A stretch of DNA of 64,000 nucleotides from Oscillospiraceae bacterium (GTDB lineage Bacteria > Bacillota > Clostridia > Oscillospirales > Acutalibacteraceae). The stretch lies in assembly GCA_902774035.1 (NCBI GenBank), contig CACYHA010000015.1, positions 36,230-100,229 of the forward strand. The letters are read 5' to 3'. The translations under genes and the position numbers were made by a program. Positions within the stretch are counted from its first letter, which is position 1. Each line of letters opens with the position of its first letter. Under the pieces are notes generated by a model that saw only the letters and a list, made by a program, of their open reading frames with translations, was not told the DNA's origin and did not search any database. Shown here one piece after another: positions 5,793 through 24,224 of the stretch.

Positions 5793-6991
5793 ACGGGCAA
5801 CACCTTTCTGATCAGAGTTTTCATGATATAGCGCAAGCTGTCAAAGAAGAGCTTGACTTTTTCCGTGGTTGATTTTTCCGGCGCGCGGAAGGGGTCGGGC
5901 GTGAACGTGCCGTCGCTGTAAGAATAGAGCTGATTCTCGTAGTGCGTGACGTCGTCCTCGCTGAGCGTGATCACCCGCATACCGTAGGGGCCGCTTTTGG
6001 CAAATTCGCAGCCGTAGGTCATGTTCAGCTCAATGCCCTCGTAGGCGCCGCTGTAGCCGTCCTGATGCATGTGGCCGAAGAAGGCGGCGATCACGTCGCC
6101 CTGTTCCTTCCAGGCGGTGAACTCATAGCTGTCGCCGTCTTCCCCGTAGTAGACGTTGTCAAAATAGCCGTGGGCGCCGTCAACGAGCTTGTAGTGCTTG
6201 ATGCCGTTGAAGCTCGCGACCAGCACGCCGTCCGGGTCGTTCTTGTCGCAGGTCGTGAAAAGATGGCTGAGCTCTTCCACCGGGATATGCTGGAAGGCGA
6301 AGGCCGGTACGGTTTTGCCGTTTTGCGTCTTTTGGGCGGCGCTGTCCGCGGCGTACCATTCCACAGATTCCGGCCGCGCCATTTCCTCGCCGCTGTCCAT
6401 GCAGTAGATGTTCAGCTTGACCTCTTTGCCGTCGGCGCCGTAGATCGGCAGACGGTAGTCGATGCCTTCGCTCGTTTCGCTCTGATCGGCGGTCAGGTTG
6501 TTTTGATAGTTCGCGTAAAACGCTTTCCAGTCCTCGTTGCTGATGCCGACCTTATAGTCGTTGTTGCCCTGCGTGAGCGCATAGGGAACGCCGCTTTCTT
6601 CAAAGATGTTCAGCACATAATCCGCCGCCATGAACGCGTTTTCGCGGGTCTTTTCCTTGTCCTTGCCCTTGATCCCGAAGGCGAGGACGCCTTCCATGAT
6701 GCCGAAATTATCCTTGAAATCGCCCAGACGGAAGTCTTCCACCAGATCGCCGGTGAAGATGATAAGATCCGGCTGCGCCTGTTCGATCGCTTTTTTCAGG
6801 AAGGGCTTGAGCTCGTGGGCGGGGTACTGGTCGTCCTGGGTGTCCGTCAGGTGAAGGATGGTGAATTTGCCGTCTTCGCCGAACTTCAGCGCGGGCGCGG
6901 CAGCCGGTTCGTCCGCGGCAAAGCAGAGCAGGGGACTGACTGTCAAAACCAGCACCAGGCAAAGGCACAGGCAGATGAGTTTGTTTTTCAT
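5789..6991 (-). CDS. Secreted calcineurin-like metallophosphoesterase
   Basis: A 400-residue protein with a signal peptide (MKNKLICLCLCLVLVL, cleavage near FAADE). The mature part carries the metallophosphoesterase motif series: LHLTDTQDD (about residue 45), FTGDLVED, GNNDY, QHIP and the final GHMHQDG. The ligands are therefore intact except that the usual first-motif DxH reads DTQ. It lies between the aldolase and kinase genes with 4-nt overlaps on both sides, so it is translationally coupled to them. It may dephosphorylate an extracellular sugar phosphate before uptake; the substrate is unknown. Confidence 0.75.
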   Translation of the reverse strand: MKNKLICLCLCLVLVLTVSPLLCFAADEPAAAPALKFGEDGKFTILHLTDTQDDQYPAHELKPFLKKAIEQAQPDLIIFTGDLVEDFRLGDFKDNFGIMEGVLAFGIKGKDKEKTRENAFMAADYVLNIFEESGVPYALTQGNNDYKVGISNEDWKAFYANYQNNLTADQSETSEGIDYRLPIYGADGKEVKLNIYCMDSGEEMARPESVEWYAADSAAQKTQNGKTVPAFAFQHIPVEELSHLFTTCDKNDPDGVLVASFNGIKHYKLVDGAHGYFDNVYYGEDGDSYEFTAWKEQGDVIAAFFGHMHQDGYSGAYEGIELNMTYGCEFAKSGPYGMRVITLSEDDVTHYENQLYSYSDGTFTPDPFRAPEKSTTEKVKLFFDSLRYIMKTLIRKVLPV

Positions 6992-7836
6992 TGGTTCGCG
7001 TGACCTCCCGTTTCAAAAATCTCGATATGTTGTTTTGCGTTTTGATAGGCGCCTTCGATCTCTGCGCAGTGGAGATCGTAATAGCCCTTGATCGTTCCGG
7101 CGGCGTAGGCGGCGCGGACGGTCTGCTCCACGCGGTCAAAGGTCGCCGTGGCGATGTTGATCTTCTTGATGCCGCTGTGGAAGCACTGCTTGAACTCCGT
7201 CGGCAAAATGCCCGTACCGCCGTGCAGCACAAGGGGAACGGCCACGCTTTCGCGCACTTTTTCGAGGATGTCAAAGCGCAGATGCGGCGTTTCCTTGTAG
7301 TTGCCGTGGGCGTTGCCGATCGCAACGGCAAGGGCGTCCACGCCGGTTTCTTCGGCAAAGCGTTTGGCCTGCGCGGGGTCGGTGCAGCGCATGGCGATGT
7401 CCTCGCTGCCGTCCTCGCTGCCGCCGACGCAGCCGATCTCGGCCTCCACCGCCGCGCCGTAGGGCTTCGCTATGGCGACGACCTCTTGGGTCAGGCGGAT
7501 GTTTTCCTCGAGCGGCAGATGGGAGCCGTCGAACATCACGGAGGTGAAACCCAGCTCCAGCGCCTGCCGGATGCAGCCCGGGGTCGTGCCGTGGTCCAGA
7601 TGGACCGCAACGGGAACCTTCGCCTCTTTTGCGGCGGCCAGCATGAGCGGGCCGATGAGGGCGAGGGGAGAGTGGTTCAGCCGCACCTCGGCGATCTGCA
7701 GGATGATGGGCGCGTTTGCTTCTTCGGCGGCTTTGACCACGCCGCGGACCATCTCCATGTTGGCGATGCTGAAGGAACCGACGGCGTAATCGCCCTTCTG
7801 CGCGTCGGCAAGTAAGGTCTTCATGTTCACAAGCAT
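6988..7836 (-). CDS. Class II aldolase, IolJ/FbaA type
   Basis: A 282-residue zinc aldolase. Family motifs are visible: VHLDHGTTPG (about residue 80, zinc ligand His), SVMFDGSHLPLEEN, EAEIGCVGG, AIGNAHGNY and LHGGTGI (zinc ligand His). Coupling to an IolC-like kinase suggests cleavage of 2-deoxy-5-keto-gluconate 6-phosphate to dihydroxyacetone phosphate and malonate semialdehyde; a fructose or tagatose bisphosphate substrate cannot be excluded. The start at 7836 has AAGGAG eight bases upstream. It may be read through from the ABC exporter genes 40 nt upstream. Confidence 0.85.
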   Translation of the reverse strand: MLVNMKTLLADAQKGDYAVGSFSIANMEMVRGVVKAAEEANAPIILQIAEVRLNHSPLALIGPLMLAAAKEAKVPVAVHLDHGTTPGCIRQALELGFTSVMFDGSHLPLEENIRLTQEVVAIAKPYGAAVEAEIGCVGGSEDGSEDIAMRCTDPAQAKRFAEETGVDALAVAIGNAHGNYKETPHLRFDILEKVRESVAVPLVLHGGTGILPTEFKQCFHSGIKKINIATATFDRVEQTVRAAYAAGTIKGYYDLHCAEIEGAYQNAKQHIEIFETGGHANQ

Positions 7837-7875
7837 AAGCAGTTCTCCTTTTTGCCGATCCTTCGGCTTTTCGGA

Positions 7876-10800
7876 TTATTCAATGGATTTGAGCGATTCG
7901 ACCATGTCGATCTTGCGCAGGTTCCGCATGAGCACGAGATTCACCAGCATTGTGAAGCCCATCGACAGCAGTGCGGCATAAACAAAGGACATGATGCCCG
8001 GGCTGCGGCCGAACATGATGATATCCACCTCGCCGACCAGCAGCACCAGCCGGTGCAGGCCGATGCCGAGCAGCAGACCGATGACGGTACCAATGACGCT
8101 CAGCAGCATGTTTTCGCGGAAGATATACGACGCGACCTCCCTCGGCGTAAAGCCGAGCACCTTGATCGTGGCGATCTCCTTCATGCGTTCGTGGATATTG
8201 ATACTCGACAGGTTGTACATAACGATCAGCGACAGCAACGCGGCGGAAAGCACAAGCACAAGCACAATATAACCCAGTGCATTGAACAAGTTTTCAAAGC
8301 CGGACTGAATGTCCTCCTGATAGGCGACCGCAGTGATGGTATAGTCGTTGATCAAATTCTGCGACAGCGTCGATTTCTGGTCGCCGTCCAGTGCGTAGGC
8401 AAGATTTGCAGTCACGTAATTGAACTGCGGGTTTACACCGAAGACCGCGGCGTAGACTTCCTTCGTCATATAGATATAATGGAAGATATAGTTTTCCGCG
8501 ATGGCGGCAATCGGCACACTGACGGCGTTGTCAGAATCGATCAAAACCGTAATGGAATCGCCGACGCCGATCTTCAGCGTCTTCGCCAGCTTGCGGGTGA
8601 TCACAGCGCCGTTCTGCGGCAGGTCGATCGGCTCGTCGGTATAATAATCATGCAGGAAGAAATAGTTCGGCAGCGCCGCACTGTCGTCCGGCACGACCAG
8701 ATAGGTCTCCATCGTCTTCGGATCGTCGGGGTCGGTCCTATCGCTGGTGGTGTTGTAAATCTTCATATACGTCAGATTCGCCGTCGCGATCTCAGGCTGC
8801 GAACGCACATAGTTCAGCGCGTCGGATTCGCCGAGACTCAGGTCGTAACTGCCGTTGGTGACGATTTGCATATCATAGCGGAAGATACTGTCCTCGTTGG
8901 TGAACTGCTCTTCAAGACTGGTGTTGATGGACTTATCCAGACCGAAGGCGGCAACCAGCAGGGCGGCGCAGCCAAACACGCCGATGACCGCCATGATGAA
9001 CCGCTTCTTGTTGCGGAACACATTGCGGAACGTGACCTTCCACTTGAAGGACAGTGAAGACCACAGCGTTGGGAAACGTTCGAGGAACACGCGTTTGCCG
9101 CCCTTCGGCGCCTTCGGGCGCATGAGCATGGATGCTGCACTCGTCAGGCTGCGATAGCTTGCGCCGTAAGCGGCAAGCACCGTCGTACCCACTGAGATGA
9201 GGATGCCGGGGACGGCGTATATCAGGCGGTACTTGATGATCAGCGGCGGCATCTCGAACATGATGCCGTAAGCGATGTTGATCGCCATCGGGAAGAGCAC
9301 GAAACCGAGCAGGCTGCCCGCAACACCGCCGATCACACTGGCCGCGAGCGCATAGATGAGATACTTGCGCACGATCTCGCGGTTGCGGAAGCCGAGGGCC
9401 TTGAGGGTACCGAGCTGGGTGCGTTCGTCCTCCACCATACGGGTCATGGTGTTCAGGCTGACCAGCGTGGAAACAATGAAGAAGAACCACGGGAAGATGA
9501 TCGCAATGGCAGCAGTACGGTCCGCAGTGCCTTTGTAATCGGCATAGCCGCGCAGGCCGTCGTCGCGGTCGTTGACATACCATCTTGCGGAATCAAGGTC
9601 CAGCAAAAAGGCTTTGGCGTGGTCAAGCTGATTTTTTGCGTCCTCCAGCTTTTTATAGGCTTCGTCGCGCTGGGTCTCAAACTCCTGCTGCGCGGTGCCG
9701 GCCTTGGATTTAGCAAGCTGAAGATTCGTTTCGTAGTTGGTGATCTGGTTTTTATAGTCGGAAAGCTGGGAAAGGACCTCCAGTTCGCCGAAACGGATGT
9801 CGTCGTTCGCGTTGGTCAGTTCCTTTTCCGCCGCATCAAGCTGCGCCTGTGCGTTTTCCAGCGAGGTATTGACGCCGTCGAGCTGGGAAACGAGCTGCTT
9901 GGCGCTGTCAAGTTCGACCTTCTTTTGGGCAAGGACGGTCTTGGTTTGATAAAGCTGCTGCTTTGTGCCGGCAAGCTGGATCTCGAGACTCTGGATCTGC
10001 GGTTCCAGATACGCAGCCATTTCCTCCGCCGTACCGACGGCAGTCAGAGAGTTGATGCCGGCCATGATCTGATCGACCTCTGCGCCGACAAGACCGCTTT
10101 GCTCAAAGCGGCTGATGATGCCGCTCACATCGTTGCCCTGCCGCTGGTCGAGAGAAGTCATTGCGCCGCGGGTGGTGGCGATGAGCTGCTCAAGATAGTC
10201 GATCGTGGTCAGCAGGGAAGTGACCTGCAGGTTCGCGACGTTGTATTCCGTCTGGGCGTTTTTGAGGTCGGTCTCCGCGTTGGCGTATTGATCGACCTGG
10301 GCTTTTGCGGCCAGATATTCGGCGCGCTTCTGCTCCCATGCGGCATATTGGGTGGAATGCTCCAGCTTGGAAGCGTCGATCTTCCGGCTGGCTTCCTGCG
10401 CTTTTTCATTATACTGGCGCTTGTATTCCGCGAGCTTGGCGTCGCCGTTTTCCGCCATGTCGAGAATGGTCGCGACCTTTTCCTCGGCGGCCTTGACGGT
10501 GGCGTCGGTCTTTTCCTTGGCGCGGGCGTAATCGAGTTCGCCCTTTTCCACCATGGAGGTGTACTGTTCCTTCAGCTTCGCCACGCGGGAGACCAGACAT
10601 TGCTGGGAGATGGACTGGATATAGTCCACATAGGGACGTACAAAGGTCTGATAGGAATCGGAGTAGGGATCCATGTTTTCCGTTCCGGCAAGTTTGACGG
10701 AAAGGCTGCTGTAATAATCGACCTTGAAGTTTTCCTGCGGCACAAAGATGAAGGTGCCGAGCTTGCCGGTGCCGATGCTCGTGGTGCCGCGGTCATAGGA

Positions 10801-18026: not shown

Positions 18027-19874
18027 TTACTTTCTCAGGCCGAACAGAGCCAGAATCATGTGGATGATTTTGACGAAGAAGCCGCCGAATCCAGTGTGAT
18101 CCTCACCGCAGTATTTGCAGGAGCCGGTCTTGGCGGGTTTCTGGTCTTCGCCGCCCTGGGGATTTTCCGGGTTGGTCGGATTTTCCGGGGTCAGCTTGTC
18201 GATGGTGACCTTGTCAAGCTGCTGGGTGCCGGCGGCGTCGGAGAAGTTCTTGCCGCAGGCGCCGCAGTGGAAGTAATGCACGTTGCCTTCCTGTTCGGTG
18301 GTGGCAGTGACCGCGGGAACCTCGGTCAGGTCATGGGCAGCCGTTTTTTCGCCGAGCAGCACCTGCGCAAACAAGCCATCGCCGACCAGGGTCACGTCCG
18401 TAGCTTTTACGCCGTTGACATAGAAAACGGCATTTTCATTGAATGCATAGGTTGTGCTATTAAGCGAAATGATCGCATAGTACTTATAGGTCTTGCCGAG
18501 TTCATAGTTGCCCGCGCTGTACTCGCCTCTGTTGCCGAGTTCGCCGGTCGGGTCGGAACCGTTTGCAGGAGCCTTCTGCGGTGCAAAGTTCCAATTTCTC
18601 CACGTATAGCCCGGATAGAGCAGATTGTCGGATTCATAGATCGCAACAAAGGAGGAATTATAATCATGAGTACCATAGCTGCCGGCCGGTGCTTCCGGAA
18701 GGTTGATCAGCGGCCTGCCCATTCCCAGCGTGACGTCCAAATCCGGGGTGATCGTGACATCATAATCGCTGCCGACGGGTTTTCCTTCCTTCGGATCGGC
18801 GGAGAAGTCGATGTTGACGGTGTTCACTTTTGTTGTTGCATACTTATTATCAACATTGACCACAAGAAGTCGCTCTTCTTTATACTCTGCACGGAAACCG
18901 GTCGTTAAAAATTTACCGTTCAGATAGATCGCTGTATCGTCCGTAAACTTATAGCCTGGACGCAGGCCAACGGTTGCATAATAGCAATAATATGTGCCGA
19001 CTTCATAAGTTTCGCTGATGCCGTTCGCATTTTCATCGTGCAGTACGGGAGAAGAAACCTTCTTCGGCGGCGCAAAGTTCAACTGATATGGTTTCGGATA
19101 TACAATTGTCCATCCGTCTGTGATTGCCACACCGGAAAACCGAAATACCCAACCCTCGTTGGACGCGTAATCCGGGGCAACGCCCATCGCTTCTACCACA
19201 TCGGATCTCGCATTATATGCAGCATTGTAAAGCTCCAAGTCGGCAAATTTTGCCTGAGTGGCAGCGGTCGCTTTCATATCGATGGAATAATCGGAGCCGA
19301 TGTTGGCGCCGGGAACCGGATTGGCGGAGAAGGTGATGTCAAGTCTGTCGACAGGTTTCACGTCGAAATCCGCCGATACGATCCTGGGATAGTTGACCCA
19401 GTAGCCCCTGGCGTTTTTCGTCAAGGGAACATAAGTTTGCGTACCGAAGTTTAAGCTTGAGATTACAAGCTCAACGGAGGAATAACTGCTTGCATTCTTA
19501 ATAACAAAGATGAAACCAGTCGCGTTTTCGGGGAGATAATAGAAATCATCATATTCTGCAAAACTGCTCAACGGTACAGAATTAAAATTGCCACTGTCTC
19601 CATAATAATATTCAACCGAAATATCATCGGAGAACCAATATGTATCATTGGTGTCTTTAAACTGATCTGTAACATTCGTTTCGCCGGAAGTGCCGCGATT
19701 TTTGATGAAGTAAGCGTCGTATGGGTCGCAAAGGAAGCCCATTTTTCCGTTATACTTTTGCACATAGAAACCGTAAATGGTCAGTGTGTCACCTGCCGCA
19801 CTGGCAGAGAAGCAGACACTCATGCAGCCAACGAGCATGAGGACCGCAAGGAGAATTGAAAGTGTTTTCTTCAT
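18027..19874 (-). CDS. Large secreted protein with Cys-rich membrane tail, likely target of the adjacent regulatory system
   Basis: A 615-residue exported protein. The ATG at 19874 is chosen because it gives a clear signal peptide (MKKTLSILLAVLMLVGCMS) and has AAAGGA upstream. The body holds two related repeats containing VDRLDITFSANPVPGANIGS and VNIDFSADPKEGKPVGS. Near the end comes a module common in gut Firmicutes surface proteins (HDLTEVPAVTAT, then HCGACGKNFSDA), a Pro/Asn/Glu-rich spacer, and the tail CKYCGEDHTGFGGFF plus a hydrophobic helix ending in LRK. The tail resembles a sorting or anchoring signal. No enzymatic domain is seen. Its promoter carries the same palindrome as the sensor operon upstream. 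Confidence 0.7.
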   Translation of the reverse strand: MKKTLSILLAVLMLVGCMSVCFSASAAGDTLTIYGFYVQKYNGKMGFLCDPYDAYFIKNRGTSGETNVTDQFKDTNDTYWFSDDISVEYYYGDSGNFNSVPLSSFAEYDDFYYLPENATGFIFVIKNASSYSSVELVISSLNFGTQTYVPLTKNARGYWVNYPRIVSADFDVKPVDRLDITFSANPVPGANIGSDYSIDMKATAATQAKFADLELYNAAYNARSDVVEAMGVAPDYASNEGWVFRFSGVAITDGWTIVYPKPYQLNFAPPKKVSSPVLHDENANGISETYEVGTYYCYYATVGLRPGYKFTDDTAIYLNGKFLTTGFRAEYKEERLLVVNVDNKYATTKVNTVNIDFSADPKEGKPVGSDYDVTITPDLDVTLGMGRPLINLPEAPAGSYGTHDYNSSFVAIYESDNLLYPGYTWRNWNFAPQKAPANGSDPTGELGNRGEYSAGNYELGKTYKYYAIISLNSTTYAFNENAVFYVNGVKATDVTLVGDGLFAQVLLGEKTAAHDLTEVPAVTATTEQEGNVHYFHCGACGKNFSDAAGTQQLDKVTIDKLTPENPTNPENPQGGEDQKPAKTGSCKYCGEDHTGFGGFFVKIIHMILALFGLRK

Positions 19875-20027: not shown

Positions 20028-20056
20028 ATTATACAAATTGCACGCATAAAAGTAAA
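20028..20056 (-). promoter_or_regulatory. Promoter of the secreted-protein gene
   Basis: On the minus strand a weak -35 TTTACT (20056-20051), a 17-bp spacer and a perfect -10 TATAAT (20033-20028). The weak -35 is immediately preceded by the palindrome at 20059-20098, the layout of an activator-dependent promoter. The leader is about 150 nt. Confidence 0.75.
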
Positions 20057-20058
20057 TT

Positions 20059-20098
20059 CCCACAAGTGATTAACCATTTATGAGTAATCACTTGTGGG
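20059..20098. promoter_or_regulatory. Palindromic operator next to the secreted-protein promoter
   Basis: CCCACAAGTGATTA at 20059-20072 and TAATCACTTGTGGG at 20085-20098 form a perfect 14-bp inverted repeat with a 12-nt spacer. The 12-mer TAATCACTTGTG recurs at 23851-23862 beside the sensor-operon promoter. It could double as a terminator for the response-regulator gene ending at 20124, but the match to the second site favours a protein-binding role. Confidence 0.7.
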
Positions 20099-20123
20099 TA
20101 GTGTTCTTCGCGGCAGGCGCGGC

Positions 20124-20792
20124 TCAGTGTTTGGCTTCTCCATTCGACGCGCCCATGACCTCGCTGACGGCAGCAACGCCCAGCGCCCGGGCTTTGATGG
20201 CAAGCTCCGTGCGGCTGGAAAGCTGGGTCTTGCGCAGCATGTTGCGCACGTGCACCTTGACCGTGTTTTCGCTGATGCCGAGCCGCGCGGCCACCTCCGC
20301 GTTGGAAGCGCCGGTGGTCATCTCGCGCAGAACGGAAAGCTCGCGCTCGGAAAACGAATCGTTATCGACCCGGCCGATGTTGAAGTGCGGCACAAAGGAG
20401 GGATATACCGATTCGCCCGCCATCGTGCGGTCCATGACGTCTAAAAGCTCCATTTCACCCGCTTCCTTGAACCAAAAGGAATCCACCCCGGCGGCACGGG
20501 CGCGTTCCAAAAAGCTGCGATCCACCAGGCTGGTGACGGTAATGATTTTGATTTCGGGGTGCTTTTTCTTCACTTCGGCCGCAGCGGTCAGGCCGTCGGA
20601 GCCGTCGTTCATCAGAATGTCGAGCAAAATCAGGTCCACCTTGTATTGCAGCAGATAGATGTCCAGCGCATAGGCCGACGGCACCGACACCGCCAGCTCA
20701 TAGTGGTCGGAATGCTTCACATACTGTTCAAACAGTTCGCGCGGGATCGACTGATCGTCCACGATCATGACCCGGGTTTTCGTTTTTTTCAT
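20124..20792 (-). CDS. NarL/LuxR-family response regulator
   Basis: A 222-residue regulator. The receiver domain (about 1-120) has the acidic pair in VMIVDDQS, the phosphoacceptor Asp in LILLDILMNDG, Thr in ITVTSL and Lys in FWFKEAG. The C-terminal LuxR helix-turn-helix reads SERELSVLREMTTGASNAEV then ISENTVKVHVRNML. The ATG at 20792 is chosen since GAGAGGTG lies before it. It is last in a three-gene operon, 12 nt after the kinase, and probably binds the palindromes at 20059-20098 and 23851-23866. Confidence 0.9.
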   Translation of the reverse strand: MKKTKTRVMIVDDQSIPRELFEQYVKHSDHYELAVSVPSAYALDIYLLQYKVDLILLDILMNDGSDGLTAAAEVKKKHPEIKIITVTSLVDRSFLERARAAGVDSFWFKEAGEMELLDVMDRTMAGESVYPSFVPHFNIGRVDNDSFSERELSVLREMTTGASNAEVAARLGISENTVKVHVRNMLRKTQLSSRTELAIKARALGVAAVSEVMGASNGEAKH

Positions 20793-20804
20793 GGCTGTCA
20801 CCTC

Positions 20805-22091
20805 TCAGAATTCAAACTTCAACTGCAGCCGGAACGCCGGTGCGCTTTCAATCGTCAGCGCCACGCCGTTCTGTTCGGCCAGCTTGCGCAAATCGGCAAG
20901 TCCGCCGGTTTCTTTGACCGGCCCCGCGGGCGGGTCGCCGTCGTTGGTCAGCGAAACGGTGGTCTGGCCGTTTTCTTGCGTGACGCGGACAAACAGGTTC
21001 TTGCCGCCGGCGTGCTTCACCGTGTTGGTCAGGCATTCATGGATCGCAATGGTCACCACGTCGCGGTGGAGCTTCGGCAGGGCTCCTTCATAATGGATGG
21101 ACGCGCCGATCATAGCCGCCGCCTGTTCCACCGCAAACAGCGGGTCGTCGCTGCGGTCGGGCGTGTTCTGCGTTTGCAGAATTTTCGTTTCCGTCCGAAT
21201 CAGGTCGATTAGCGCTTTCCGGTCGCTGCCGGGGTGCGAAAGATAGTTGCGGATGGCCAGCAGGGTGTTGCCCAGCTCGTCGTGCAGCCGGATCTTCGCG
21301 CGCAGGATCTCGCGTTCGCGCATAATGCGATCCATCTGCTGCATATAGTCGCGCAGCTTCCGGTTCACCTTTTCCAAACGGGCATTGCGCTTGCGCAGCT
21401 CAACAAGCGCGCGGTAACGCTCGGTCGTGTCAAAGGCGACGGTTTCGGTCATCTGTTTCCCGTCGATCGTGACGGTTTGCTGTTTCAGCCGCCAGACGGT
21501 TGCATCGGGCAGCAGCAGGAAGGTGTTGTTTTCATCTTTGTCCACGCTGCAGCCAGGTTGCAGATCGCCCGTCTCCAGCCGACGGTTCATTCGGTGGGCG
21601 TCTGAGACGTTTTCGCCGAAGGCCGCGTGGCTGATGCCCTGCATCCGGTCGTTCACCAGCCGCGGGAATCCGTCGGTCAGGCTGAAGCAGATACCGTCCG
21701 GCAACTGGTCGAATCCTTCGCAAACCGACCGGGCAGAAAGCGTGCGGCGCGACAGCCGCATCAGATGGACGGCAAGCGCTGTTTCCGCCGCCAACAACAG
21801 CAGCGCCAGCAGGACGAACACCCATATCGGGAGCTCCAGCGTCGGCTCCGCCCAGGACGGAACCGGAGCGGCATAGTCGGCAAGATCGTGCATATACACG
21901 GAATAGATCTCGATCATCCATTCCGGCCAGAATGCAAGCAGCGCAAAAACGGCGCAGATGATTTTATGGGGCAGCGTCTTCGGCTTACCCACGGCATACA
22001 GCGCGCAGAGCACGGCGCCGAGGCAAAGCAGCAAAAACGCAAAGCCCAAGCCGCGCATGGCGCTGAGCGGGAGGTCAATCAATCGCATCAT
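20805..22091 (-). CDS. Sensor histidine kinase (NarL-type partner)
   Basis: A 428-residue kinase with about three to four transmembrane segments in the first 125 residues, a linker with a short PAS-like stretch (GFDQLPDGICFSLTDGFPRL), and the dimerisation/phosphoacceptor helix REREILRAKIRLHDELGNTL, where the His before DELGN is the likely phosphosite. The ATPase part has AIHECLTNTVKHAGG (N box) and DGDPPAGPVKETGGL (G box). AGGAGG lies six bases before the start, which overlaps the end of the upstream membrane sensor gene by 17 nt. Confidence 0.88.
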   Translation of the reverse strand: MMRLIDLPLSAMRGLGFAFLLLCLGAVLCALYAVGKPKTLPHKIICAVFALLAFWPEWMIEIYSVYMHDLADYAAPVPSWAEPTLELPIWVFVLLALLLLAAETALAVHLMRLSRRTLSARSVCEGFDQLPDGICFSLTDGFPRLVNDRMQGISHAAFGENVSDAHRMNRRLETGDLQPGCSVDKDENNTFLLLPDATVWRLKQQTVTIDGKQMTETVAFDTTERYRALVELRKRNARLEKVNRKLRDYMQQMDRIMREREILRAKIRLHDELGNTLLAIRNYLSHPGSDRKALIDLIRTETKILQTQNTPDRSDDPLFAVEQAAAMIGASIHYEGALPKLHRDVVTIAIHECLTNTVKHAGGKNLFVRVTQENGQTTVSLTNDGDPPAGPVKETGGLADLRKLAEQNGVALTIESAPAFRLQLKFEF

Positions 22092-23763
22092 GCTGTACCT
22101 CCTCCCCGCTGTTTTTCGATGTTAGAACAAAACGGACAGAAATTTTTTCCAGGTTGCGCCTTGCTTCTTTTTCCGCGCACCGCAGCCGCTGCAGGATCTG
22201 CTGCGAGGGCTCCTGCAAAAGATCCGCCGTCATATGAAAGACGCTGCCGCCCTCGGCCTCGGGTGCAAGTTCAACCGTGACCCGCCGCAGCACGGGCAGC
22301 ACAGATTCCAGCACCGATTCAAACGCTTCATACAGCAGGACCGTGTCCTGCACCGGGGCCTGCCAGGCCGGAGCCACGGAAATCTCGCAAAAAACGCCGC
22401 CCAACGACAGGGCCTTTGCCGATTCCGTCAGGCAAAGCTGCATATCGGCGCCGGTCAGCACCGGGTGGGTATCCGCCTGCAGCAGCAAACTGCTGCGGCG
22501 CTTGCAATAGGCCAGCAAGACGCTCACACGGTACAGCACTGCGCAAAACGCTTTCTCCTCTTCGGGCAGCGTGTGCAGCCATTTGCTCAGCGTTTCCAGT
22601 TGGGGATGAAGAGAATCGATCACGCTGTCATACAACTGGATCTGCGCGGCGGTTTGTTTGCGGCTTTCTTCCATTTCGGCAATCGCACGCAGCATATTGT
22701 TTTCTTCGGCCAGCTCTTCGGCGGCGTTGTCGAGCGCTTCGTTCAGCCGCCGCAGCTCGGCAACATCCTCTGTCCAATAGAACCATCCGCCCTGCACGGG
22801 GCGCACCTTGAGCAGCGTGCTGCCGTTGGGCAGCAGCAGCTCGCCGTTGCCGGCCCGGCGCAATTGTTCCGGCGTCGGGCGGACCCCTTCGGCAGAGGTT
22901 TGCTGCACCTGGTATTGCAGATCGGAAAGACCGACGCGCAGCGAAGACGCGGCAAACGCCGCCGGATAGCCCTTGTTGCTTGCCACAATTCGCGAAACAA
23001 CAAGGCTTTCCCAAAACGCAATGGTACAAAGACAGATGTATTCGGGCAGATTGACGATTCTGTCTAACCACGAGATGACGCCGAAATCAAAGACGTAACC
23101 GAGTCCGAACAGGCCGGTGACCGCCAGCACAAGCAGCGGCAGCCATGCCGTTTTGAACAGACGACGGTTGACGGCGGACTGAACCGCCAGCGCGAGCACA
23201 CTGCTCACCAGCAGGGCGACCCAGACGACAACGGCAATATAGAGCGGACCGCGAGTGTAACTGCTTTGCCAGTTTGCAAAGTCCGGCGCGAAGCGGAACG
23301 CAGCCTGATGAAAATCGTTGGTCAAAACGCCGGCAACAAGCAGCATGGCGGGCAGATACAGCCAGTTCCAATACCAGGAAGCACAATAAGCGTTCGGCTT
23401 GCCGATATTCAGCGCGGCGCGGAACATCATCAGCGCGCCAAAGATGATGGGAACGTAATAGCCGTACCACAGATAGCGCTGCAGGGGACTGTCCCACATC
23501 ACGAAGGTGTATTTTGCTGTACGCAGAAGATTCAGCAGCACGAAAGCCGCCACCAGAAGGGACATATAGGCACGCATCTGCTTTTGCGGAAACCGGCGGT
23601 AAACGCTGTAGCCCCAGACAACATAGATGGAGTTGAAAATGAGGCAGTTGAAAAGCACGCCCGGAAAATGCAAACCGAGCTTGATATTGTTGAACAGGCC
23701 GGCCCCGACCACCAGCGCAAAGCTGACCAAAAGAGCGCGCAGGCCTTTTTTGCTGAAATCCAC
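22075..23763 (-). CDS. Multi-span membrane sensor without kinase domain
   Basis: A 562-residue protein starting at GTG. Seven or eight hydrophobic helices fill the first 250 residues, in the manner of the 7TM sensor modules found at the N terminus of histidine kinases. A PAS-like region (LQYQVQQTS to GWFYWTEDVAELRRLNEALD) and a helical region (about 340-420) follow, and the C-terminal part has no readable H, N or G boxes. It overlaps the kinase gene, so the two are co-translated. I infer a co-sensor that passes a signal to the separate kinase, making a three-component system. Confidence 0.65.
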   Translation of the reverse strand: MDFSKKGLRALLVSFALVVGAGLFNNIKLGLHFPGVLFNCLIFNSIYVVWGYSVYRRFPQKQMRAYMSLLVAAFVLLNLLRTAKYTFVMWDSPLQRYLWYGYYVPIIFGALMMFRAALNIGKPNAYCASWYWNWLYLPAMLLVAGVLTNDFHQAAFRFAPDFANWQSSYTRGPLYIAVVVWVALLVSSVLALAVQSAVNRRLFKTAWLPLLVLAVTGLFGLGYVFDFGVISWLDRIVNLPEYICLCTIAFWESLVVSRIVASNKGYPAAFAASSLRVGLSDLQYQVQQTSAEGVRPTPEQLRRAGNGELLLPNGSTLLKVRPVQGGWFYWTEDVAELRRLNEALDNAAEELAEENNMLRAIAEMEESRKQTAAQIQLYDSVIDSLHPQLETLSKWLHTLPEEEKAFCAVLYRVSVLLAYCKRRSSLLLQADTHPVLTGADMQLCLTESAKALSLGGVFCEISVAPAWQAPVQDTVLLYEAFESVLESVLPVLRRVTVELAPEAEGGSVFHMTADLLQEPSQQILQRLRCAEKEARRNLEKISVRFVLTSKNSGEEVQHDAID

Positions 23764-23820
23764 GGTTCCGCCCCCTTCCTCGCAAGCGCGTGTTCCGGAA
23801 AATACACTTTTCCATTTACA

Positions 23821-23866
23821 ATTATATCACAAACAATAACTAAAAGTATATAATCACTTGTGATTA
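23821..23866 (-). promoter_or_regulatory. Sensor-operon promoter with palindromic operator
   Basis: On the minus strand the palindrome TAATCACAAGTGATTA (23866-23851; 7-bp arms) is followed after one base by a poor -35 ATACTT (23849-23844), a 17-bp spacer and a perfect -10 TATAAT (23826-23821). Geometry and 12-mer sequence match the promoter at 20028-20098, pointing to autoregulation by the operon's own response regulator. Confidence 0.75.
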
Positions 23867-24180
23867 GTTGGAACGGAGGCATTTTGTCGATTTCTGCTCG
23901 CAAGGAATGATGTTTGATCGAGTGGATACCGCAGTCGAATTCTTCCATCATCGTTACAGCCGAAAGCAATCGTTCCGTATGCACCGGCGCAACAGATGGT
24001 ACGGTCGTTTTTCAGAACCATGACGCGGCCGCATGCACGCTCTGTCGGTTTTACGCCGTCTTCAAAGCGGAATCCGGCGCTTTCCGCTTCCGCAAGGAAC
24101 TGCTTGCCGGACGCCTCGTCTGTCAGTTCAACGTAAATGGGTTTGTTTGGGTTTTCGAGTTGTTTCAGGATGTTTTTCAT
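23854..24180 (-). CDS. Unknown 108-residue protein under a SAM riboswitch
   Basis: Starts MKNILKQLENPNKPIYVEL; the ATG at 24180 has AGAGAGG about nine bases upstream. The first two thirds look like a small globular alpha/beta protein (TDEASGKQFLAEAESAGFRF), then YGTIAFGCNDDGRIRLR near residue 70-87. The last 20 residues overlap the sensor-operon operator and look unconstrained. The NDDGRIRLR block recurs in a minus-strand fragment near 34390-34462, so this is a repeated local family. I do not recognise a function. The SAM riboswitch and strong promoter directly upstream leave it as the only candidate target. Confidence 0.65.
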   Translation of the reverse strand: MKNILKQLENPNKPIYVELTDEASGKQFLAEAESAGFRFEDGVKPTERACGRVMVLKNDRTICCAGAYGTIAFGCNDDGRIRLRYPLDQTSFLASRNRQNASVPTNHK

Positions 24181-24224
24181 GGGTAATACCTCTCTTAATA
24201 ATATATTTTCCAAAAGAGTGACAC

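Follow-up and report, generated by a model that had tools for sequence, protein, structure and literature searches.

We analysed a 64 kb stretch of DNA (the window) from Oscillospiraceae bacterium GCA_902774035.1, contig CACYHA010000015.1, a genome labelled G000 here; other genomes, contigs and loci are given G, C and L numbers. On its minus strand lie, in order, genes for a membrane sensor (SEN), a histidine kinase (HK), a response regulator (RR) and a secreted protein (SEC), and the promoters of the sensor operon and of SEC both carry 7-2-7 inverted-repeat sites. We propose that these sites are probably operators through which RR activates its own operon and the genes of exported proteins. 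The features concerned are:

22075-23763, minus strand: SEN, membrane sensor, 562 residues; N-terminal seven-transmembrane (7TM)-like region, PAS-like region and degenerate histidine-kinase core, pseudokinase-like
20805-22091, minus strand: HK, histidine kinase, 428 residues; H270 and N356 invariant in 20/20 rows; DesK-like fold
20124-20792, minus strand: RR, response regulator, 222 residues; receiver plus LuxR/NarL-type helix-turn-helix (HTH)
18027-19871, minus strand: SEC, secreted protein, 614 residues; signal peptide judged by eye; C-terminal tail CKYCGEDHTGFGGFFVKIIHMILALFGLRK
23851-23866, minus strand: candidate operator 1, TAATCAC-AA-GTGATTA, perfect 7-2-7 palindrome in the SEN operon promoter
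23821-23826, minus strand: -10 box of the sensor operon, TATAAT, 24 bp past operator 1
20085-20100, minus strand: candidate operator 2 (distal), TACCCAC-AA-GTGATTA; one base differs in L026
20057-20072, minus strand: candidate operator 3 (proximal), TAATCAC-TT-GTGGGAA; abuts the -35; identical in L026
20028-20056, minus strand: SEC promoter, TTTACT, 17 bp, TATAAT; hexamers unchanged in L026

Candidate operator sites and promoters in the window

The 12-mer TAATCACTTGTG has exactly three copies in the window, at 20061-20072 (minus strand), 20085-20096 (plus) and 23851-23862 (plus), against an expectation of 0.003 for both strands by a first-order Markov estimate. An earlier note on this DNA, made from the sequence alone, had placed these copies in both arms of the repeat at 20059-20098 and in the palindrome at 23851-23866, and our exact scan agrees. 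The repeat at 20059-20098 is the sole perfect 14-bp inverted repeat with a spacer of at most 20 in the 64 kb, and comprises two 7-2-7 sites (operators 2 and 3) with 28 bp between their centres. Given this expectation and the uniqueness of the repeat, a chance origin for the 12-mer and repeat was rejected. A 12-mer scan at 2 mismatches is not significant (4 found versus a mean of 2.9 in shuffles), so it is the exact matches that carry the signal.

A perfect TATAAT follows the 16-bp site at both promoters, 24 bp past it in the operon and 23 bp past it before SEC, which places the site centre 32 bp and 31 bp, respectively, upstream of the -10. The perfect TATAAT and poor -35 described in the earlier note thus stand; the proposed gap of 1-2 bp between site and -35 does not, as the -35-like hexamers adjoin the site with zero gap, and the spacer of 17 bp holds for SEC (TTTACT), that of the operon (TATACT) being 18 bp. 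A simple promoter scan lists the SEC promoter and misses the operon's own, because the -35 of the latter is too poor, and lists a plus-strand match there instead. Such site-to-promoter geometry would fit a class II activator promoter. A comparison of the gap between RR and SEC in the window and in G011 (L026/L030) shows almost no change in the two operators, the -35 and the -10, and divergence elsewhere.

A small open reading frame (ORF) upstream of the operon (23854-24183, minus strand) has its last codons and stop inside operator 1, with AATCACAAGTGA giving N-H-K-stop; it has no match at E 0.1 in Pfam or NCBIfam.

Distribution of the module and its sites

Homologues of SEN were found in 18 of 34 genomes of the genus and in 35 of 300 genomes of the family, and in the fetched loci HK and RR follow SEN, with the exceptions of L035 (a contig end) and L032 (a decayed copy). 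A related-locus search with HK returned 2 loci. The G011 contig L026/L030, from a goat rumen Clostridia metagenome-assembled genome, encodes HK, RR and SEC proteins that are 87%, 86% and 61% identical to those of the window. A literature search, which did not cover most subscription papers, found no description of the regulon or of a SEC-type tail; the papers listed for HisKA_7TM deal with archaeal or eukaryotic kinases.

Among 35 SEN promoter regions compared (L026/L030 and L031 were excluded, as these contigs begin within SEN), the palindrome lies just upstream of SEN in six of the seven with a SEN identity of at least about 43% (the window, L029, L032, L076, L077 and L165), and these span three genera. 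We then searched with the pattern TARTCACNNGTGAYKA, drawn from five SEN promoters, in the eight genomes that carry the close form of the module (G000, G004, G011, G028, G030, G092, G193 and G330). At no more than 1 mismatch there are 26 places, of which 16 are A/T-centred, and all 16 of these fall into three groups: six SEN promoters (one of them in a decayed copy); three places right after RR (G011:C52, G030:C47 and G092:C146, the last overlapping the RR end), each preceding a protein with a signal-peptide-like start; and seven before unlinked genes (G000:C20, G030:C6, G030:C45, G092:C273 and G330:C35, C60 and C127) whose products were judged secreted from their N-termini. Eleven of the 16 played no part in motif building. 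A -10 box (at most 1 mismatch) lies 20-24 bp past the site in 14 of the 16 places (10/12 in one set, 4/4 in G330), whereas shuffling the 60 bases downstream gave about 0.11 such boxes per site (in a set of 14 that included the two SEC sites).

The genome G330, a second species of the genus of G193, was detected by its SEN after the motif had been fixed. All four of its places fit, being the SEN promoter and three genes whose secreted products contain BspA-type LRR_5 domains (E no higher than 2.2e-105), with TATAAT 22-23 bp past the site at every one; its RR (53% identity) is present, intact and open, and a weaker site can be seen by eye after RR, TCATCATTTGTGACGA, 22 bp before a TATAAT. The five other genomes of this genus contain no perfect site, and none has SEN at 1e-80. 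With 30-117 matches to LRR_5 in each of these genomes the domain is common, so the regulon would comprise a subset of such proteins, and the link to LRR domains is weaker than that to secretion.

Of the 34 genomes of the genus, three contain perfect sites, against none for the reversed control, and all three belong to the five with SEN identity of at least 46%. In the family, a perfect site with any centre is found in 12 of 300 genomes (reversed control, 4), and a perfect A/T-centred site in three (G000, G092 and G193), which are exactly those with SEN at E < 1e-100; without the A/T condition, perfect sites are present in 3/3 close-module genomes versus 9/297 others. In the window's own genome, allowing up to 2 mismatches with an A/T centre, six places were found: those before SEN and SEC, one at an LRR protein on C20, two in the decayed copy on C4 (at the SEN promoter and after the RR remnant, the latter 22 bp before a TATAAT) and C6:189418. 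The genes, the sites, their spacing, their conservation and their co-occurrence are all features of the DNA as it stands.

Several observations weigh against the proposed activator switch, and we set these out together. The A/T-centre condition was introduced after the sites had been seen, and ten near-matches in the close-module genomes have other centres, one of them (G011:C58) within coding sequence. In two of the 16 A/T-centred places (G030:C45 and G092:C146) no -10 box lies at the expected spacing; of the three near-matches in G028 none is A/T-centred, and G004 has no A/T-centred place either. Three places at 1 mismatch, one of them A/T-centred, also occur in G075, a genome that lacks a close sensor. 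In the window's own genome, C6:189418, flanked by convergent genes, is probably a chance match, and the reversed control pattern at 2 mismatches is about as frequent (4 and 8 against 5 and 6), so that at this stringency the count alone proves nothing. The distal SEC site, operator 2, has no counterpart at operator 1. Finally, L028, the operon of G004, has a SEN that is 64% identical and no palindrome, with no match at up to 1 mismatch anywhere in that genome, and the site is absent (at most 2 mismatches, 400 bases upstream) from all 28 promoters with SEN identity of 33% or less, three of which (L043, L087 and L088) offered fewer than 400 bases.

The idea of a site common to all homologous operons was rejected on these distant promoters (0/28), and we conclude that the operator belongs to a sub-clade of the module. 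This bears on two points of the earlier note, which had counted homologous operons lacking the palindrome against its reading and had suggested searching genomes for palindromes by the homologous genes: perfect A/T-centred sites do track the close module, which keeps its palindrome in six of seven cases, and the operon of G004 and the 28 distant ones are without it.

The window's own genome holds a second, decayed copy of the module (L032, on G000:C4, about 6450-9210), in which a TAA lies within SEN, and HK ends near residue 280 and adjoins the last 20 residues of RR (an assembly fault is possible); both operators remain. In the distant modules L044 (3838-4221), L046 (6411-6794) and L081 (2575-3321) a short related protein is encoded after RR, of 127 residues in L044 and L046 and in a longer frame in L081.

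The response regulator as probable binder

The RR protein has the two Pfam domains of a LuxR/NarL-type response regulator, both above cut-off (PF00072, 3e-15; PF00196, GerE/LuxR HTH, 4e-19). Its HTH has NarL as the best PDB match (TVKVHVRNMLRK against TVKVHVKHMLKK), and the full-length protein has VraR; by NCBIfam equivalogs it is neither NarL (80 bits versus a cut-off of 250) nor NarP (83 versus 343). The base contacts of NarL fall in the recognition helix aligned here, and the NarL heptamer is TACYYMT, to which the TACCCAC of operator 2 is alike. A 7-2-7 inverted repeat together with a NarL-like recognition helix suggests DNA recognition of the NarL type. The NarL dimer is described as binding 7-2-7 sites; at ogt1052 a single site with its centre at -44.5, lying 32 bp upstream of the -10, is reported to suffice for activation (PMC4549865, PMC9314961). 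Taken with the placement of the sites, these likenesses indicate that RR is very probably the binder of the 7-2-7 sites before its own operon and before exported-protein genes.

A pseudokinase-like sensor beside an active kinase

The earlier note had described SEN as a membrane sensor without a kinase domain; this description has to be given up. Residues 231-534 of SEN align with residues 79-408 of HK in an hhalign profile comparison (probability 92, E 5.8e-7), and in the SEN column opposite H270 of HK none of 20 rows has a histidine (17 have Y, and V, F and L occur once each). SEN thus looks like a pseudokinase, because its C-terminal half aligns along HK with the histidine lost, and is best read as a membrane protein of this kind that works beside HK. 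In HK itself, H270, N356 and G396-G397-L398 are invariant in 20/20 rows, as would be expected of an active histidine kinase; the Pfam ATPase models score below cut-off on it. HisKA_7TM (PF16927) scores 17.8 bits on SEN against a cut-off of 28.6 (E 0.003), and N-terminal helices are predicted.

AlphaFold models of SEN and HK have a predicted local distance difference test of 84 and 83 and a predicted template modelling score of 0.52 and 0.40, respectively, and their C-terminal halves are similar in helix/strand order. Foldseek matches to HK include DesK and VraS. For SEN, the single Foldseek match below 1e-3 is 4gcz, named as a blue-light photoreceptor, which we take to be a chimeric histidine kinase; weak 7TM receptor matches follow.

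Probable secreted targets and a shared tail

The SEC protein has no match over cut-off in Pfam (one lies below it), and none in NCBIfam. We surveyed the neighbours of RR in 31 loci (L031, L087-L089 and L165 were excluded), using a home-made rule for signal-peptide-like starts that misses some, for example in L029. Within 2.5 kb, such a start is found on the next ORF of the same strand in 16 of the 31 loci and on one of the next two in 24, and 28 loci have at least one ORF of this kind; the background is 7/53 for the ORFs of the window and 112/359 for those of these loci. This suggests that the module often adjoins genes for secreted proteins, even where there is no operator.

The C-terminus of SEC (window 18027-18130) carries a motif, CxYCGxxHTGFxGFFVxxxHSILALFGLRK, which recurs with 25, 31 and 34 matches in G000, G011 and G030 (E of at most 0.1), a few lying within very short frames. 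With its motif, hydrophobic stretch and basic end, the tail looks like a sorting or anchoring signal. A tail of this type ends 3 of 10 secreted targets (G000:C20, G011:C52 and G030:C6), several targets running off their contigs.

Model and alternative readings

We propose that SEN, in which a 7TM-like receptor is joined to a dead histidine-kinase core, would read a signal at the membrane and pair with, or steer, HK; HK would then autophosphorylate on His270 and hand the phosphate to RR. Dimers of phospho-RR may bind 7-2-7 sites of the approximate form TARTCAC-WW-GTGAYTA, whose centres lie 28-32 bp upstream of the -10 (30-32 bp in most cases), and activate from a class II position. The targets would be the operon itself, giving positive feedback, the SEC gene after RR, and a few unlinked genes for secreted proteins. 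In this scheme we infer that RR is the binder, that it activates rather than represses, and that SEN partners HK and phosphate is transferred. We consider this activator switch, as a whole, to be the probable account, and the comparative evidence lends support to what the earlier note had put forward: a shared operator of activator-like geometry, the LuxR-type regulator of the operon as its likely binder and the secreted protein as its likely target.

A first alternative is that RR binds these sites and represses: its dimer would cover the -35 and shut the promoters, and phosphorylation or its loss would be the switch. The site does abut the -35 in the window, and NarL is described as repressing at frdA (PMC4549865). 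However, the -35 hexamers of the window are poor and its -10 boxes perfect, which is the usual state of activator-dependent promoters, and the spacing between site and -10 equals that reported for the NarL-activated ogt1052 (PMC9314961) and, in 14 of the 16 places, stays within 20-24 bp. We therefore regard repression as unlikely.

Alternatively, a regulator other than RR might bind the palindrome and control both the operon and the secreted-protein genes. Sequence alone cannot name a binder, and in G004 the operon is present without the site. Against this, across genera the perfect A/T-centred sites go with the close form of the module, many of them lying beside it, and the sites share the 7-2-7 layout of RR's own family, which leaves another binder quite improbable.

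The weakest alternative sees in the 20059-20098 repeat a transcription terminator of the operon, or a hairpin in its mRNA, and takes the likeness to the promoter palindrome as secondary. It draws on the folding of its minus strand as RNA (-23 kcal/mol, z -5.8, about 25 bases past the RR stop codon) and on the after-RR sites of L029 (10135-10205) and L111 (6715-6795), which lie inside hairpins followed by five or six U; we think it very improbable, since no terminator-like U tract was found for the repeat in the window, a base change in the G011 copy unpairs a stem position and leaves both sites recognisable, and operator 1 folds poorly (-3.7 kcal/mol). As a plain terminator the repeat was rejected on the missing U tract, the G011 stem change and the keeping of the sites. 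In L029 and L111, terminator and operator may share one sequence.

Returning to the activator switch, we offer more tentatively a wider possibility: that this might be an undescribed and widespread surface-display switch of gut and rumen Clostridia, in which a standing heteromer of an active kinase and a 7TM-like receptor with a dead kinase would act through a NarL-type regulator to switch on exported proteins, BspA-like ones among them; the tail shared by some of these may be a sorting signal of a new kind. To the question of how uncultured Clostridia of the gut and rumen select the large surface proteins they produce, the system would bring a candidate operator, a regulator and a set of targets; it would also be a compact example of an inactive kinase that has been retained as a receptor subunit next to an active kinase. 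Such a regulon could be defined without culture, by comparing draft genomes.

Comparison with known systems

The closest parallel on the side of the DNA is the NarX/NarQ-NarL-NarP system of E. coli, which has the same NarL-type HTH, 7-2-7 inverted heptamers and a site about 31-32 bp upstream of the -10. In contrast to that system, the kinase input here is different, there is an extra, pseudokinase-like sensor, the likely targets are secreted proteins and the host belongs to the Clostridia; the RR also falls far below the NarL and NarP cut-offs. Among Firmicutes, DesK-DesR and VraS-VraR are alike in the HK core, which folds like DesK and VraS, and in VraR being the best full-length PDB match of RR. 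Unlike these, the HK described here has a PAS-like region and adjoins a second, inactive, 7TM-like kinase, and the comparison covers the proteins.

For the proposed role of SEN, DivL and ChrS(CA-fs) offer precedents: both are described as resembling kinases, lacking catalysis and steering a genuine kinase (PMC9491836; for DivL also PMC9430884), as we suggest for SEN. These come from other phyla, and ChrS(CA-fs) is a laboratory mutant, whereas SEN is a regular member of a three-gene operon that occurs in many genomes.

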